The notes under the pieces: generated by a model
Databases searched by the model: none
The model's input: only the letters and a program-made list of their open reading frames with translations
What the model was told of the DNA's origin: nothing
NCBI GenBank assembly: GCA_023150615.1
Contig: JAKLKO010000005.1
Coordinates: 124,001-188,000 of the forward strand
From: Phycisphaerae bacterium
GTDB lineage: Bacteria > Planctomycetota > Phycisphaerae > UBA1845 > UTPLA1
Reading direction: 5' to 3'
DNA: 64,000 nucleotides
In this document: positions 36,570 to 49,493 of the stretch, in pieces
How positions within the stretch are numbered: the stretch's first letter is position 1
Layout of the letters: each line of letters opens with the position of its first letter
Made by a program: the position numbers and the translations under genes

Positions 36570-38660
36570 ATGTCCCGTCCGCGCGCCCATAGCCCGATCG
36601 GTTCGCTCCGCGCTCCGCCGACGCCTCGCACGCCCGCCGGCCTCTTCGGACCGGGGGCCTTCCTCCAGAATCTGTATGCGACCGGTCCGTCCCGCCCGTC
36701 CGCGCTGCGCGGCTGGGCGCTGACGCCGCTCGCTCGGGCGGACATCGTCCTGGCGATGGTCCTTGCCGCCTCCGCGATGTGGGTGCGCCAGCCGTTCATC
36801 GTGCACGGCGAATCGCTGCTGCATTCGGACGAGGCGATCGTGGGGCTGATGGCGCAGGACATCGCCGATGGAACGCGCTACCCGATCTACTTCTACGGCC
36901 AGCGTTACATGGGCGCGCTCGAAGCATACGTCGTCGCGGGCCTCCGCCACCTGCTCGACGATCCGGTTGTCGCGCTGCGGAGCGGACCGGCGTGCTTCTT
37001 TGCACTCCTTGTGGCCGTGCAGTTCCTGATGCTGACTCGCTGGTATGGGCGCCTCGCGGGGTTGGTGGCCGCGGCGTCACTGCTCGCGGCGCCGCCGATG
37101 TTCGTGCAGTGGAGCGTTGCGGCGCGCGGCGGATACATCGAAATCCTGCTCTGGGGCAGCGCGGCGATGTGGGCGTACGCGGAGTGGTTCGTGGCACGGT
37201 CCGATCCTGCCGGCCCGCGGCGTCGCTTTCTGTTTGGCGCGATCCTCGGATCGGGGATGTGGATCAACCCCTCGATCATCGTCTTCGCGCTGCCGATCGC
37301 GATGCACGCATTCCTGGCGCGGGTCTGGCCGATCATCCGCGCCGGACCGGACGTTTCGCGCTTCGTGGGACGTCTGGGGCCGCTCGCGCTGCCGGTGTTC
37401 GCGGCAAGCGCCATCGCGCTGACCAGCCTCGTGCACTGTGTGTGGGTCGAGGACGGCCGCATCCGTCGCCTGACGCTGCTCGGCGTGCTCCCGCCGGCCA
37501 TTGCGAAGCTCGTCATCGGCCTGGCCGTCGCGGGCGGTGCGTTCGCCCTGCTGCGGCATCGCGAGTTGCGCGAGCATGTGCGCACAGCGCTGGCAAGATC
37601 CGCCGGGCTCGTATTCGGCATCGTGGCCGGAGCGACGCCGGCGATCGTCTATCTCGTCGGCGGCGCGGTCGGTCGGTACGCGCTCGACCCCTCGCTGCCG
37701 CTCGGGCTGCGTCCGTTCTGGAAGTGCGGCGCGACGCTGGCCTACCTGTTCGACGGACTGCCGATGTTGTTCGCCGCGGATGCGCGGACGTATCTCGATC
37801 TCGTGCTGCTCGGTCGCGATTCGCCGCTCCGCCCCTTGCCGCTGGATGTGTCGCTGGCAGTTTCGGCGGCGGACGTGCTGGTCGGCGGCGCGATGTTGAC
37901 GATCGCCGCGGCCCTTCTCGTCCGCTACCGCAGCGAGTTCGTGCGGTTGTTGTCGTTGCGCGGCGGGACTTGTGCCCCGGTGATGATCCCGGCGCTCGGC
38001 GCGGTGACGCTGATCGGGTTGTTTCTGCTGAGTGGCGCCGCGGTCGACATCAACAGCGTCCGATACCTCGTGCCGATCTGGGCGTTCGTTCCCGGATTGA
38101 TGGCGGCCGCAGTCTCGACGCGGCGGCGGCCGCGGCTCGGCGCGGCCGCGATGGCGCTGCCGGCGCGATTCGCCACCGTGCTCGTGCTTCTGGCGTGGAC
38201 CTACGGACAATCGGCGATGGCCGCACAACTCGGCCAGCCGCACCCGCTGCGACGCGCAGCCGACACGCTGGTGGGGCGCTCCACCGGCACCGCGACGGCC
38301 GAGATCTTTGACGCCCACGTGCTTTCGTTCCTGACCGGACAGCGCTGCCGAGTCGCGGAATACCGGCCGTTCTGGTCGCGCCTGGCGCACTATCGCGCGA
38401 CCGAGGCCGATCGGGCGGTCCAGCGGCGGACGTTTGTCGTCGAGACGCGACCGGGCGATTGGTTGAGCGACTGGCGGCGTCTGCGACTGCCGGGCGATCC
38501 TCCGCCCGAGACGCATCGGACGCTCTGGCCAAGGATCGAGCGGTACCTTCGCGGACAGCCAGACGCACTCGAGTCGATCGAGCGCCTGGATGACCGGTTC
38601 TCGCTGGTGCGGCTGCGACATCCGCTCCCGCCCGAATCCCGCATCTCCACACTCCCGTAG
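36570..38660 (+). CDS. GT-C type membrane glycosyltransferase (PMT/GT39-like)
   Basis: A 696-residue protein with about 11 to 13 hydrophobic helices. The first loop after helix one carries 'HSDEAIVGLMAQDIADG' with the catalytic-type Asp-Glu, then 'YPIYFYGQRYMGALEAYVVAG', a layout known from the ArnT/PMT-like GT-C superfamily that uses polyprenyl-phosphate sugars on the outer face of the membrane. The C-terminal 120 residues are soluble and periplasmic. The sugar donor and acceptor are unknown. It precedes the PqqD/HPr-kinase-like locus, with 131 bases between. Confidence 0.72.
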   Translation: MSRPRAHSPIGSLRAPPTPRTPAGLFGPGAFLQNLYATGPSRPSALRGWALTPLARADIVLAMVLAASAMWVRQPFIVHGESLLHSDEAIVGLMAQDIADGTRYPIYFYGQRYMGALEAYVVAGLRHLLDDPVVALRSGPACFFALLVAVQFLMLTRWYGRLAGLVAAASLLAAPPMFVQWSVAARGGYIEILLWGSAAMWAYAEWFVARSDPAGPRRRFLFGAILGSGMWINPSIIVFALPIAMHAFLARVWPIIRAGPDVSRFVGRLGPLALPVFAASAIALTSLVHCVWVEDGRIRRLTLLGVLPPAIAKLVIGLAVAGGAFALLRHRELREHVRTALARSAGLVFGIVAGATPAIVYLVGGAVGRYALDPSLPLGLRPFWKCGATLAYLFDGLPMLFAADARTYLDLVLLGRDSPLRPLPLDVSLAVSAADVLVGGAMLTIAAALLVRYRSEFVRLLSLRGGTCAPVMIPALGAVTLIGLFLLSGAAVDINSVRYLVPIWAFVPGLMAAAVSTRRRPRLGAAAMALPARFATVLVLLAWTYGQSAMAAQLGQPHPLRRAADTLVGRSTGTATAEIFDAHVLSFLTGQRCRVAEYRPFWSRLAHYRATEADRAVQRRTFVVETRPGDWLSDWRRLRLPGDPPPETHRTLWPRIERYLRGQPDALESIERLDDRFSLVRLRHPLPPESRISTLP

Positions 38661-38791: not shown

Positions 38792-39085
38792 ATGGATCAT
38801 CGTCGCGACGAATCGAGCCTGCCGCCCGGCGAAGCGCCGGACGCCGCGTCCGCATCACCGGATGTACGGGTTGCCGACCGCCATCCGCGCCGCGACTTCC
38901 TCAAGAAGACCGCCGCACGCCTGATCTACGTTGCACCGATCGTCGAGACCTTCGTCGCCGCGCCGCTGATGGCAGCCAGCGGCTTTGGCTCAATTGGATC
39001 AGTCGGAGGTGCGCCGCCGCCGCCCGAGACGCCGCCGCTCGACAAGTCGGCCGAGGTCCAGCCGATCGTGCCGTCGCCGAAGTGA
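38792..39085 (+). CDS. small protein with Tat-like leader, candidate substrate peptide
   Basis: A 97-residue protein. Residues 1-38 are polar and acidic. At 39-45 stands 'PRRDFLKK', then a hydrophobic stretch 'TAARLIYVAPIVETFVAAPL' ending in AAS. A Gly/Ser/Pro-rich tail without cysteines follows. The twin Arg plus F-L-K-K resembles a Tat signal set unusually far from the N-terminus; the block 'YVAPIVETFVA' resembles short proteins I associate with PqqD-type clusters. The gene ends four bases before the PqqD-like gene, so it is first in that operon. Possible roles are an exported or modified peptide substrate of the downstream enzymes. ATG at 38792; AGGA upstream. Confidence 0.55.
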   Translation: MDHRRDESSLPPGEAPDAASASPDVRVADRHPRRDFLKKTAARLIYVAPIVETFVAAPLMAASGFGSIGSVGGAPPPPETPPLDKSAEVQPIVPSPK

Positions 39086-39089
39086 TCCG

Positions 39090-39368
39090 ATGATGCATGC
39101 GCTTCCACGTATACAGTCGCATCTCACGGTTCGGACGCTGGCCGGCGAAGCGGTGGTCTACGATCCCCGATCGCGCGCAACGCACCGCCTGAACGCGACC
39201 GCATTGACGATCTGGCGCTGGTGTGCGGAGGCCCGCGGCTCCGCCGACGTCGCACGGCGGCTGACGGCGACGTTCGAGGTCGATGCCGCGCAGGCCGAGG
39301 CGGACGTGCGGGCGACAATTGACGCGCTATACGAGCGCGGGCTTACCGACGGGCTGCTGCTGTCGTGA
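39090..39368 (+). CDS. PqqD-like peptide chaperone / RiPP recognition element
   Basis: A 92-residue protein of PqqD shape: a three-strand beta part with 'GEAVVYDPRSRATHRLNATALTIWRWC' followed by three helices ('SADVARRLTATFEVDAAQAEADVRATIDALYERGL'). PqqD and RRE domains bind leader peptides and present them to modifying enzymes. It starts at the first of two adjacent ATGs. Its stop overlaps the start of the HPr-kinase-like gene (TGATG). It belongs to the class of PqqD proteins encoded with HPr-kinase-like and nucleotidyltransferase genes ('HPr-rel-A'). Confidence 0.78.
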   Translation: MMHALPRIQSHLTVRTLAGEAVVYDPRSRATHRLNATALTIWRWCAEARGSADVARRLTATFEVDAAQAEADVRATIDALYERGLTDGLLLS

Positions 39369-40324
39369 TGGGCGAGGACCAAACCAATCCGGCTGCGCCC
39401 AATCGTGCGGACGGTGATGCGCTCGTCCACGTTGCGCGCTATCAACTGGGCGTGATCGGCCTTGAGCTTCGTTCGGACTCGCGGCGCGCGGTGCGCGAGT
39501 ACGATCGGTACTATGCCGAATTCCGATGCGCGTCGCACGCGACCGATCCCATCGTCGTTGACGTTCGCCGCTCCGCGTCGCGCTGGCGGCGAAATCAGCG
39601 CTTCGACGTGTCGAGCAATGGCCGGCCGCGATCCTCGTTTCGATCGGCGGCCGACGTGCCGCCGCACGTCGACTGGGCGGTGAATTGGGCCATCGGTTTG
39701 GACCGCGGCGAGTACTTTCAGGTCCACGCGGCCGTGCTGAGTCGCGGCGCGCACGGCGTGGTTCTTGCGGGTGCTTCGGGGTCGGGGAAATCGACGCTCG
39801 CGGCCGCGCTGCTGCTGTCCGGCTGGGGCTATCTCGGCGACGAGTTCGCGCTGCTCGATCCGGACGACGGTCGTCTACTCGCGTTTCCGAAGGCGCTCTG
39901 CCTGAAGCAACCATCGTGGAAACTGTTGCGCTCGGCGTGCGGACTGAGCGGCCTGCGCGCGTGCTGCCGGCGTCGCGCGGAGGGACCGGTCGCGCTGCTG
40001 CCGGCACGGCGCGTGCGCGGCGATGCGATCGCAACCTCGGCAATGCCGCGACTGCTCGTGTTTCCGGCCGCTCGGACCGGCGGCGCTCCGCGCGCGCGGC
40101 CCATCACACCCGCCGATGCGTTGATGCGCTTGGCGCGGCTGAGCTTCAATTTCTTCTCGTACGGCGCTCGCGGACTGGAGGTCCTGGAACGATTGGTGCG
40201 GTCCGCGCCGGCGTACGAGCTGGCGGCCGGCGAGCTTCGTGCAACGGTGCGGTTGCTGGGCGAACTGTTCGACGACGCGCTTGAAGCGCTGCGCGAGGAT
40301 GCGCCCATGCGGGTACCGGCATGA
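39368..40324 (+). CDS. HPr kinase-like protein (HPr-rel-A type)
   Basis: A 318-residue protein. The core has the HprK P-loop GASGSGKST at 135-143 (Lys141) preceded by 'YFQVHAAVLSR', and 'GWGYLGDEFALLDPDDGRLLAFP', the HprK-like C-terminal arrangement of acidic residues. HprK phosphorylates Ser46 of HPr in sugar regulation. This relative has no HPr gene beside it; it lies with PqqD-like and nucleotidyltransferase genes and may phosphorylate a peptide or protein. Both its start (TGATG) and its stop (ATGA) overlap the neighbours, so the operon is fully coupled. Confidence 0.78.
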   Translation: MGEDQTNPAAPNRADGDALVHVARYQLGVIGLELRSDSRRAVREYDRYYAEFRCASHATDPIVVDVRRSASRWRRNQRFDVSSNGRPRSSFRSAADVPPHVDWAVNWAIGLDRGEYFQVHAAVLSRGAHGVVLAGASGSGKSTLAAALLLSGWGYLGDEFALLDPDDGRLLAFPKALCLKQPSWKLLRSACGLSGLRACCRRRAEGPVALLPARRVRGDAIATSAMPRLLVFPAARTGGAPRARPITPADALMRLARLSFNFFSYGARGLEVLERLVRSAPAYELAAGELRATVRLLGELFDDALEALREDAPMRVPA

Positions 40325-41427
40325 TGTCAGACGACGCGCGACGATTCTGTCGCGTGCTTGCGGCGCTGGCGCCGGACGGTCCCACTCGCGCATCGGACGT
40401 CCAAGCCCCGGGACTGGATGATCGCGCCGTCGCGTTGGGGCTGGGGCCGGCGATGTACGCCGCGGCACAGCGCGCGCTTGCCCATGACGATCGCGCGGCC
40501 GCCCGGTTCCCCCGGTCGCGCGCCGCGTACTTCCGCGCGGCGGGGCGCACGTCGCACCAGTTGGCCCAGGCGGAGAGCATCGCGGTCGCACTGCGCAGCG
40601 CGGGACTGCCGGCGATCGCCCTGAAGGGCATCGCGCTCGCACGTCGGTACTACGCCGATCCGGCCGCGCGGCCGATGATCGACATCGACCTGCTCGTGCG
40701 CGGGGCGGACCTCGCCAGCGCCGAGGCCATGCTCCGGCGCGCGGGCTTCACCGATGCCGTGGACGCGACCTTCGCCGCGACGCTCCGCCGGCGACATCAT
40801 CACCTTCCCCCGCTCCGGGACCCGGCAGGCGGCGAGCTGATCGAGCTGCATCACGATTTGCTTCCGCGCGCATCGCGCGTCCGCATCGACGTCGATGCGC
40901 TCTGGCGGCGGAGCATCACCGAGCCGGACTCGGCGCTGCGGTTTCTCGCACCCGAAGACCTCTACCTCCACCTGGCGATCCATTTGCTGCACTCGTCGGC
41001 CGTGATCGGTCGGATCGGCGCGCTGCTCGACTTGCACGTGCTCGCGACGACGGAGATGCAGCGTGCGCCGGACTTCGGCGCGCGGTTGTCCGCGCGGGCA
41101 ATCTCTCTGGGATTGTCGCACTGGGCCGGGCTGGCCGCGGCGCTCTCGCACGACGTATTTCAGACCGACCTGGCCGGCGACCGCCCGCGCAACTCGATCG
41201 GCGTTCGCGTCTCGCCCCGCCAGGTCCGGCGATTCCGCGATGCACTGCTATCGCCGCTGGAGCGTCCACTGGACCGCGCGCAGCACGATCGGTGGATGCG
41301 CCGCAAGCTTTGGCTGGAGCGGCCGACGGTGCTGCATGGGCTTCGGCTGGCCGCTGGCGCGCTTATGGACGCGGTGCGACGGCCGAGGCCTCCGTCGATT
41401 CGGCCAGCGACGTACACGTCCGGATGA
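40321..41427 (+). CDS. nucleotidyltransferase family protein (NTP_transf_5-like)
   Basis: A 368-residue protein with 'LPAIALKGIALARRYYADPAARPM' followed by 'IDIDLLVRGADLASAEAML', the D-x-D metal motif of the PF14907-type nucleotidyltransferases. The remainder has helical content with 'ELIELHHDLL', a conserved L-H pattern. It probably transfers a nucleotide to a protein or peptide substrate. It closes the operon of the small Tat-leader-like protein, PqqD-like protein and HPr-kinase-like protein. Its last 65 bases overlap the end of the convergent receiver-HDOD gene. Confidence 0.78.
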   Translation: MMSDDARRFCRVLAALAPDGPTRASDVQAPGLDDRAVALGLGPAMYAAAQRALAHDDRAAARFPRSRAAYFRAAGRTSHQLAQAESIAVALRSAGLPAIALKGIALARRYYADPAARPMIDIDLLVRGADLASAEAMLRRAGFTDAVDATFAATLRRRHHHLPPLRDPAGGELIELHHDLLPRASRVRIDVDALWRRSITEPDSALRFLAPEDLYLHLAIHLLHSSAVIGRIGALLDLHVLATTEMQRAPDFGARLSARAISLGLSHWAGLAAALSHDVFQTDLAGDRPRNSIGVRVSPRQVRRFRDALLSPLERPLDRAQHDRWMRRKLWLERPTVLHGLRLAAGALMDAVRRPRPPSIRPATYTSG

Positions 41428-47498: not shown

Positions 47499-49493
47499 CT
47501 ACGGGCAGGCCGTATTGGGATCGGTCGCGAGCTTGCTGACGAACGCCGCGAGGTCGCCGGCCGTGTCGACGTCGGCCGTCATCGTGTTGCCGTTCAGGTC
47601 GCTGACAAGGCAGTCGGTGCTCGTGAGCACGCAATCGACGAAGCCGTTCGTGTCGAGACCATCGACGCGTCCGTCGCCGTTGAAGTCGCCGGCGCAGCGG
47701 ATGAGCACGACGGCCCATCCCGCGCGGATCATGCCGCCGCCGTCGATCGCGCGGATCGGAAACGCGTCAAATCCGTAATAGCCGCCGTCCGGCGTGTAGA
47801 CGAGTTGCGTTGCGCCGTTCACCGTGACGGCCGTGCCGTGCGAACCGGGACCGGTGACGAGGTATGTGTGCGAATCCGTGAGATTCGGATCGGCCGTGAG
47901 CGGCGACGTCGGCGCAGTGGGGAGCGGATCGACGGCGAAGAGCCGCGCGTGCGTGGCCGTCGGCGCGACGTTTCCTGTCGGGGCCGGGAACGCCGATGTG
48001 AGCGTGAGCGTTGTGGTCTGCACACCGTTGGAGCCTGGATTGCCTGGGCTCGCCCCACCCGGACCCGCCGGGCCGAGGTTGGTGGTCGGTGCGTTCAGGC
48101 TGACGGCGGCCGAGACGGTCCGCGCGACTGCGGCCGACGAGCCGCCCGCCCCGCCTCCGCCATGTCCGCCGTTACCACCCGTGCCGCCGTTTCCACCGTT
48201 TCCGCCGGGACCGCCATCATCCGCGCCGGGTCCGCCGCTTGCGCCGGCGCCGCCGGAATTGCCGCTGCCCCGGTTGCCGCCCGCGCCGCCTGCAGCGCCG
48301 CCGACGGTGTTGAAGATGCAGTCGGTCGTGTTGATCGTGCCATCATTTGCCACGATCGCGACGGAAGAGCCGCCGTGCCCGCCGCCGGTACCGCCCGTGC
48401 CGGGGTAACCGCCCTCACCGCCACCCCCGCCGCCGCCGCCGCGGTCAGCGTTGCAGAAGAGGTCGCTCCGACCCCCGCCGCCACCTCCACCGCCCCCGCC
48501 GCCTCCGCCGGGACTTCCGATCGAGCCAGCGCCGCCGTCGCCAAATGGCGGCGTTCCGCCAAGGCCGTCCGCACCGGCTGCGCCGGGAGCGCCGGATTGT
48601 CCCGCCGCACCCGGGTTGCCGCCGCCGAAGCATGCATCGTCTTGTCCGCCAATTCCGCCGACACCGCCGGCGCCTCCTCCGGGCGCGGTTAGGCCCGGGC
48701 CGCCGGTCTGTCCGTCCGCCGTGTTGTATCCGCCGATGCCGCCGAAGCCCCCGCGTTGCGGCGAGCCGATCCCAAAACCGCCGGGTGTGCCGCCGCCGCC
48801 GTTTCCCGAGCAGCCGTTGCAGCCGCCCTGGCCGCTCGAGCCTGCTTGCCCGGGTGCCCCGAGGGAGCCGTTGGTGCCCGCCACGCCGTTGCCGCCGAGT
48901 CCGGCGGTGAGTGTGCAGCGCGCCAGGTTGAGCGTCGCCGTGTTCGATCGTGCCAGCAGCGCGACCGAGTGTCCCGAAGGCGATGCGTTGTTGGCCGAAA
49001 CGAGGCGGAGCCGGTCGATCAGGCTCGCGCTGGTCAGCGCCTGTGCGTAGGTTCCGATGGTTGAGCCGTTGACGACGGCCTGGGTGTTGCCGCGCGTCCA
49101 GAGGGGCGTGGGATCATAACCGCCGTAGATTGCGACACGGCCGGAAAGGACAAGTGTCTCATTGTACGTTCCGTTGGCGACGTAGACGTCGCGCGGCGGC
49201 GTGAGCAATCGCGCCGCGAGCACGGCCGCGCCGATCGTCTGCATCGGGGCGTCGATCGTGCCGGCGTTCGAGTCTAGCCCGGTGTTCCTGACAAAGATCG
49301 GTCCGCAGCGCATTCCGTCGATGCCGTCGCCGTTGCTGTCGGTAAACGCGTCGTCTGGCAGGTCGAGCGCGGCCGGCGGCGGATTCACCAGGCAGGCCGC
49401 GTCGATCGCGGTGGCGATGGATGGGACGATCGTAAGGGCCGTCATGGTCGGCAGCGCGACGACGATGAGCGCACGAAGTGCGCGGTGGCACAT
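47499..49493 (-). CDS. exported glycine-rich protein with dockerin-like tail
   Basis: A 664-residue secreted protein. After the signal peptide comes a DUF1565-like segment ('DSNAGTIDAPMQTIGAAVLAAR', 'DVYVANGTYNETLVLSG'), the start of a right-handed beta-helix. The middle (about 205-465) is a huge Gly-rich block with many GG, GGNGG and GAPG units and an 11-Gly run. Then come Ig-like strands and at the C-terminus two Ca2+-loop repeats: 'GDFNGDGRVDGLDTNGFVDC' and 'SDLNGNTMTADVDTAGDLA', a dockerin-like type I pair. Planctomycetes use such tails on many exported proteins. A surface-attached structural or sugar-binding role is inferred. Confidence 0.72.
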   Translation of the reverse strand: MCHRALRALIVVALPTMTALTIVPSIATAIDAACLVNPPPAALDLPDDAFTDSNGDGIDGMRCGPIFVRNTGLDSNAGTIDAPMQTIGAAVLAARLLTPPRDVYVANGTYNETLVLSGRVAIYGGYDPTPLWTRGNTQAVVNGSTIGTYAQALTSASLIDRLRLVSANNASPSGHSVALLARSNTATLNLARCTLTAGLGGNGVAGTNGSLGAPGQAGSSGQGGCNGCSGNGGGGTPGGFGIGSPQRGGFGGIGGYNTADGQTGGPGLTAPGGGAGGVGGIGGQDDACFGGGNPGAAGQSGAPGAAGADGLGGTPPFGDGGAGSIGSPGGGGGGGGGGGGGRSDLFCNADRGGGGGGGGEGGYPGTGGTGGGHGGSSVAIVANDGTINTTDCIFNTVGGAAGGAGGNRGSGNSGGAGASGGPGADDGGPGGNGGNGGTGGNGGHGGGGAGGSSAAVARTVSAAVSLNAPTTNLGPAGPGGASPGNPGSNGVQTTTLTLTSAFPAPTGNVAPTATHARLFAVDPLPTAPTSPLTADPNLTDSHTYLVTGPGSHGTAVTVNGATQLVYTPDGGYYGFDAFPIRAIDGGGMIRAGWAVVLIRCAGDFNGDGRVDGLDTNGFVDCVLTSTDCLVSDLNGNTMTADVDTAGDLAAFVSKLATDPNTACP

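Follow-up and report, generated by a model that had tools for sequence, protein, structure and literature searches.

What do the enzymes of the HPr-rel-A systems act on? These systems form a named set of families to which the model libraries that we searched assign no substrate, and the question is raised anew by a locus of a Phycisphaerae bacterium (contig JAKLKO010000005.1, positions 124,001 to 188,000), in which genes for a PqqD-like protein, an HprK-related kinase and a PF14907 nucleotidyltransferase follow a small gene. The window, by which we mean the whole stretch of 64,000 nucleotides that was analysed and in whose numbering all positions are given, was initially read from its letters alone; that original prediction proposed an HPr-rel-A-like trio accompanied by a dedicated substrate peptide.

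The locus and its three enzymes

Re-reading of the open reading frames placed four coupled genes on the + strand at 38792-41427, packed as tightly as first described: the PqqD start lies 4 bases past the stop of the small gene, the PqqD and kinase genes meet in a TGATG overlap, and the kinase and nucleotidyltransferase genes in an ATGA overlap. A search for a sigma-70 promoter or a terminator at the locus found no support for either. The features discussed below are:

36570-38660, + strand: candidate fifth member, a membrane protein of ~10 TM segments, without Pfam match
38792-39085, + strand: precursor (substrate) gene, 97 aa, with an acidic n-region, a leader and a Gly/Ser- then Pro-rich core
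38888-38893, + strand: twin-arginine codons R33 R34 of RRDFLKK, from the alignment, with TatC in the genome
38927-38944, + strand: YVAPIV (Y46-V51), a YxxPx[V/L/I] motif within the leader's hydrophobic core, predicted to bind the RRE
38975-39082, + strand: predicted core after the signal-peptidase-like site (LMA|ASGFGSIGSVGGAPPPPETPPLDKSAEVQPIVPSPK); putative cleavage, first Ser at +2
39090-39368, + strand: PqqD-like RRE gene, 92 aa, above the TIGR04353 cut-off
39368-40324, + strand: HprK-related kinase gene, 318 aa, ATG at 39368, TIGR04352 E 1.5e-47
39767-39793, + strand: P-loop GASGSGKST of the kinase, intact, with K141 at 39788-39790
40321-41427, + strand: PF14907 nucleotidyltransferase-fold enzyme gene, 368 aa, PF14907 132.9 bits

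Comparison of the three enzymes with the family models, a check suggested at the outset, gave a divided result. The PqqD-like protein scores 44.7 bits against TIGR04353 (cut-off 35) and the nucleotidyltransferase, whose gene adjoins the kinase gene and overlaps its stop, exceeds the PF14907 cut-off of 31.2, while the kinase matches the full TIGR04352 profile at 162.1 bits and stays under the equivalog cut-off of 200, as does that of a second planctomycete locus (L063) at 175 bits. Hence, by the curated rule, the window kinase belongs to a divergent HPr-rel-A-like branch: the trio and its peptide stand as originally proposed, and membership of the kinase in the equivalog does not.

The P-loop noted in the first reading is indeed intact, and the kinase, the only one of its kind in this genome, keeps the residues that are invariant among its relatives (H120, G140, K141, T143, D158, E159, K180 and G206). 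Its residue 205 (about 39980) is Glu, where 98% of the relatives have Lys, a substitution that may tune or impair the enzyme.

Upstream, the nearest relative, L032, has a homologue of the 36570-38660 protein (5.6e-171) directly before its precursor gene; every other searched locus lacks one. The window protein might serve the pathway as a GT-C glycosyltransferase; it has no Pfam and no PDB sequence match, so that this assignment finds no support there. The sequence HSDEA follows its first TM segment.

The small protein as partner of the trio

The small protein matches no family among the NCBIfam and Pfam models, and we found no substrate model for HPr-rel-A in either library. Its distribution is more telling. 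We surveyed 101 related genomes, with a strong match to the kinase in 52 and a weak one in 2 more; an alignment search, to whose alignment part of the surveyed genomes had contributed and others had not, recovered the small gene in 51 of the 52 strong-kinase genomes against 2 of the 49 others (Fisher p 3e-25). An iterated profile run over 40 fetched loci and the window found relatives in 35. The precursor lies within the locus itself in 59 of 74 distinct kinase loci, and the genomes of six loci without it have it on another contig or far off. In genome G096, five precursor genes stand in tandem ~330 kb from the kinase; these Cys-rich genes (L134, 4394-7000) have similar upstream segments, and CGGTCGGGGG precedes four of them.

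A comparable picture emerges in the Pseudomonadota, where TIGR04352 is matched above its cut-off in 50 of 299 genomes. At 25 of 30 such loci an upstream gene encodes RRRxLLKxL..VPxIxTL..GAALA, and a profile of this precursor detects it in 40 of the 50 genomes above the cut-off against 0 of the 249 others (p 1e-40). The co-occurrence that the original prediction had put forward for checking is, in short, nearly perfect in both phyla.

In-frame fusions are the best indication that PqqD and the kinase have the small protein as their target. In five loci (L135, L136/L117, L137, L138/L070 and L139/L127) kinase and complete precursor are encoded, in this order, by a single open frame, and in three (L039/L079, L140 and L149/L125) a PqqD domain comes first and is continued by the precursor. 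Co-occurrence and fusions together rule out a chance operon neighbour. With the synteny, they make the gene at 38792 very probably the precursor of this system.

A leader with the marks of a Tat signal and of an RRE dock

Among 34 aligned relatives the leader has a conserved order, RRxFL, then [Y/F]xxP[V/I/L], then AxA. R33, R34 and P49 (window numbering) never vary, an aromatic residue almost always occupies position 46, and the AxA-like pair ends the hydrophobic stretch; in the window member the predicted cleavage-site motif is LxA, not AxA. The twin arginines, the hydrophobic region and the AxA-like site, together with TatC in the genome, are the sequence traits of a Tat substrate, which bears out the first description of the protein as Tat-leader-like. 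The further expectation, that the leader would be conserved and the tail variable, also holds among the relatives.

Embedded in the same segment, [YFW]xxP occurs in 68 of 76 distinct precursors, and an aromatic residue and Pro stand at fixed spacing from RR in 67 of the 76, against 7 of 495 control sites (RRx[FVLM][LMVI] in the same DNA). The motif [Y/W]xxPx[L/V/I/F/A] is that of lasso and LPP leaders binding discrete RREs (PMC13381572). The leader is thus predicted to join, in one segment, a YxxPxΦ RRE-binding motif, which the original prediction had not noticed, and a Tat-like signal; in the literature searched, from which subscription journals are largely absent, we found no paper combining RiPP, twin-arginine, leader peptide and RRE.

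In a profile comparison the leaders of planctomycetes and Pseudomonadota align (hhalign 92%, E 5e-7), the latter keeping RR, an AxA-like site and mostly the Pro, with the aromatic residue missing. In four Mariprofundaceae loci (L130-L133) the PqqD and kinase genes are likewise preceded by a gene for an RR..Y[IAV]PP leader and a Cys-rich core.

A Tat-like signal could by itself account for the RR, the hydrophobic core and the AxA, and one may ask whether the small protein is simply a common peptide exported by Tat, or a small protein of the cell surface, that has its operon in common with the trio, the kinase having another target, for instance an HPr-like protein or a regulator of exopolysaccharide. 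HPr is the classical substrate of HprK relatives, and the pseudomonadal loci sit amid glycosyltransferase genes. This reading is nonetheless very unlikely: it sits poorly with the five kinase and three PqqD fusions, with the lack of the precursor in all 249 Pseudomonadota genomes without an above-cut-off kinase, and with an invariant Pro and an aromatic residue held at RRE-motif spacing so far above the control sites.

The PqqD-like RRE

The best PDB sequence match of the PqqD-like protein is TfuB1 (6jx3), and its nearest solved relatives are TfuB1, TbiB1, LppB and other PqqD proteins, the nearest lasso RREs having been crystallised with leaders. In an ungapped alignment its N35 and D72 correspond to N33 and D70, the residues by which LppB holds the kinked Pro and the Tyr hydroxyl. 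N35 is invariant save in loci where the leader has lost its aromatic residue: three loci combine Lys with Asp-35, and the fusion L140 combines Leu with Ser-35. In the clade of L111, L115 and L116 the leader aromatic is replaced by Lys, N35 by Asp, and D72 by Arg or Cys; to judge from these sequences, leader and PqqD may form a re-matched pair.

Most Tyr leaders are paired with Asp-72, and no Phe leader is (p 5e-6, on raw counts). Because the kinase tree has just two Tyr/Phe changes in the leader, this covariation is phylogenetically confounded and gives no independent support; we set it aside as proof of contact and regard it as suggestive only. In an AlphaFold model of the natural L039 PqqD-precursor fusion the PqqD domain is confident, and FVAPLV is immediately followed by a short strand at pLDDT ~41-55, a confidence too low for the model to serve as proof of docking.

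Variable cores and their companions

The predicted core of the window member is 36 residues long, Gly/Ser-rich and then Pro-rich, so that the Gly/Pro-rich tail of the first reading is right for this protein and does not extend to the relatives, whose tails are either short and Ser/Gly-rich or Cys-rich. In 28 precursors the protein stops 5-15 residues past the predicted cleavage site (33% Ser, 18% Gly); in 43 the core is Cys-rich. The pseudomonadal core has ~100 residues and mostly ends in SCWxSF. In 59 of 75 relatives the predicted core has its first Ser/Thr between +1 and +3.

The cores also differ in their company. A VKOR-DsbA fusion protein, identified by Pfam, is encoded in 19 of 26 loci with Cys-rich cores against 0 of 33 with Cys-free cores (p 5e-10, a value that ignores kinship and leaves the association exposed to shared ancestry). 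Such a restriction of a disulfide-forming protein to Cys-rich cores is what one would expect of an exported core. Genes for GT2 and GT4 glycosyltransferases are often found downstream in the relatives' loci. Adjoining short-core loci in L050 (7310-8176), L060 and L062 are genes for TPR repeats joined to an RNA polymerase alpha C-terminal domain.

These data bear on another alternative, in which the small protein is the substrate but its RR serves the kinase or the RRE as a recognition element, with the peptide remaining intracellular or leaving by some other route. A long (median 34 residues), acidic (median charge -3) stretch precedes the RR, which is unusual for a Tat signal, and LPP employs other proteins, a peptidase of the SipW type and an exporter of the MsbA type. 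Against this stand the AxA-like site directly after the hydrophobic stretch, the restriction of VKOR-DsbA to Cys-rich cores with its implication of export, and the RR itself, invariant in planctomycetes and Pseudomonadota and present in the four zetaproteobacterial loci. We consider this alternative quite unlikely, and Tat export of the peptide the better account.

Relation to known systems

The closest described counterparts are the linear polyphosphorylated peptides (LPP; Popov et al. 2026, PMC13381572), which their description confines to Bacillota. The window system shares with them a discrete RRE, an HprK-like kinase, an NTP transferase and the absence of a lasso cyclase, and the precursors likewise have a YxxPx[V/L/I] leader, a variable C-terminus and a Ser near the leader-core junction; the combination that defines LPP, that is, RRE, HprK-like kinase, NTP transferase and a linear precursor with YxxPxΦ, is present here. 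Other features differ. The LPP leader consensus YxxPxVLxHQxIxFETxxS is shared only in its part YxxPx[V/I/L]. The LPP cluster includes genes for a leader peptidase (SipW-like) and for an exporter (MsbA-like), whereas Pfam scans recognised no dedicated peptidase or exporter among ten genes neighbouring the window operon, and neither of these two types in the recurring neighbour clusters of the relatives. Unlike LPP, the new loci have the Tat-like RR and AxA, very short or Cys-rich cores, VKOR-DsbA and fusions. Planctomycetes, TIGR04352 and Tat all go unmentioned in the LPP paper. RRE-Finder makes no mention of HPr or kinases, and neither 'HPr-rel-A' nor 'HprK-related kinase' returned a paper from the searched literature, in which subscription journals are scarcely represented.

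The lasso peptides paeninodin and pseudomycoidin likewise employ a B1 protein (a PqqD-like RRE), an HprK-like kinase and a nucleotidyltransferase that tailor Ser (PMC9266682). They differ in that the window genome has no B2 protease (PF13471) and the scanned neighbours include no asparagine-synthetase-like macrolactam cyclase, and we rejected a lasso peptide on these grounds.

A plausible mechanism

We propose, at a probability of roughly two in three, that the locus directs an RRE-guided, phosphorylated, Tat-exported RiPP resembling LPP. RRE docking, (poly)phosphorylation of Ser, decoration and export are put forward because the LPP and pseudomycoidin pathways use such enzymes: LppK polyphosphorylates core Ser-3 of a precursor presented by the RRE (PMC13381572), and, according to a review, pseudomycoidin Ser is phosphorylated by PsmK, while the attachment of hexoses to that phosphate requires PsmN (PMC9266682). 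Briefly, the Tyr-x-x-Pro-x-Val of the leader's hydrophobic stretch would dock into the groove of the PqqD-like RRE, which would present the precursor to the HprK-related kinase. The kinase might then (poly)phosphorylate a core Ser near the leader, S63 being the first candidate, and the PF14907 enzyme would subsequently place a sugar, phospho-sugar or nucleotide on that phosphate. The twin arginines would route the precursor through Tat, and signal peptidase I would cut off the leader at the AxA-like site. Bound PqqD might meanwhile hide the Tat signal; we propose that, as a consequence, export would be limited to modified peptide. The target that has long been missing for HPr-rel-A is, then, very probably an exported small peptide, one that by analogy with these pathways is most likely phosphorylated before export.

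The last enzymatic step admits a variant, the one suggested in the original prediction, in which phosphorylation of the peptide by the kinase would be followed by nucleotide transfer through the PF14907 enzyme, giving a nucleotidylated product. The enzyme keeps the residues invariant among its relatives (K102, G103, R117, D121xD123, H177 and H221), among them the conserved K-G...R-x-x-x-D-x-D motif that speaks for this variant. The best folds matched by its structure model are also those of nucleotide-transferring enzymes, including ANT(2'')-Ia and other minimal nucleotidyltransferases (aminoglycoside and tRNA-modifying), none at E <= 0.001. Weak matches to the CDP-ribitol enzyme FKRP, again none at E <= 0.001, suggest phospho-sugar transfer instead. 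Further, the one activity reported for such an enzyme beside an HprK-like kinase is the addition of hexose to phospho-Ser by PsmN, with the caveat given there that nucleotidylation followed by host glycosylation is still possible (PMC9266682), and LppN had no detectable role in a heterologous host (PMC13381572). We regard a nucleotidylated product as rather unlikely; decoration of the phosphate in the broader sense remains part of the preferred mechanism.

Evolutionary scope

More tentatively, one could see the planctomycete, pseudomonadal and zetaproteobacterial HPr-rel-A systems as a single family of Tat-exported RiPPs, in which the same leader segment would serve as RRE dock and Tat signal, PqqD would act as a proofreading chaperone that releases only phosphorylated (and further decorated) peptide, and the cores would range from five residues to disulfide-rich domains. 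With a partner peptide now found in two phyla, and with enzyme-substrate fusions at hand, the function of HPr-rel-A becomes testable. If the proposal is true, kinase-tailored linear RiPPs would reach beyond Bacillota, the first case of an RRE leader overlapping a Tat signal would be at hand, and the disulfide-forming VKOR proteins and glycosyltransferases of many such loci would be accounted for.

The Mariprofundaceae loci L130-L133 possibly represent a third lineage with another chemistry. In L132 (3714-6585) a radical SAM protein is encoded between the precursor and the PqqD/HprK-like kinase. In the window itself, the - strand at 47502-48884 holds a predicted open reading frame that is very Gly-rich.
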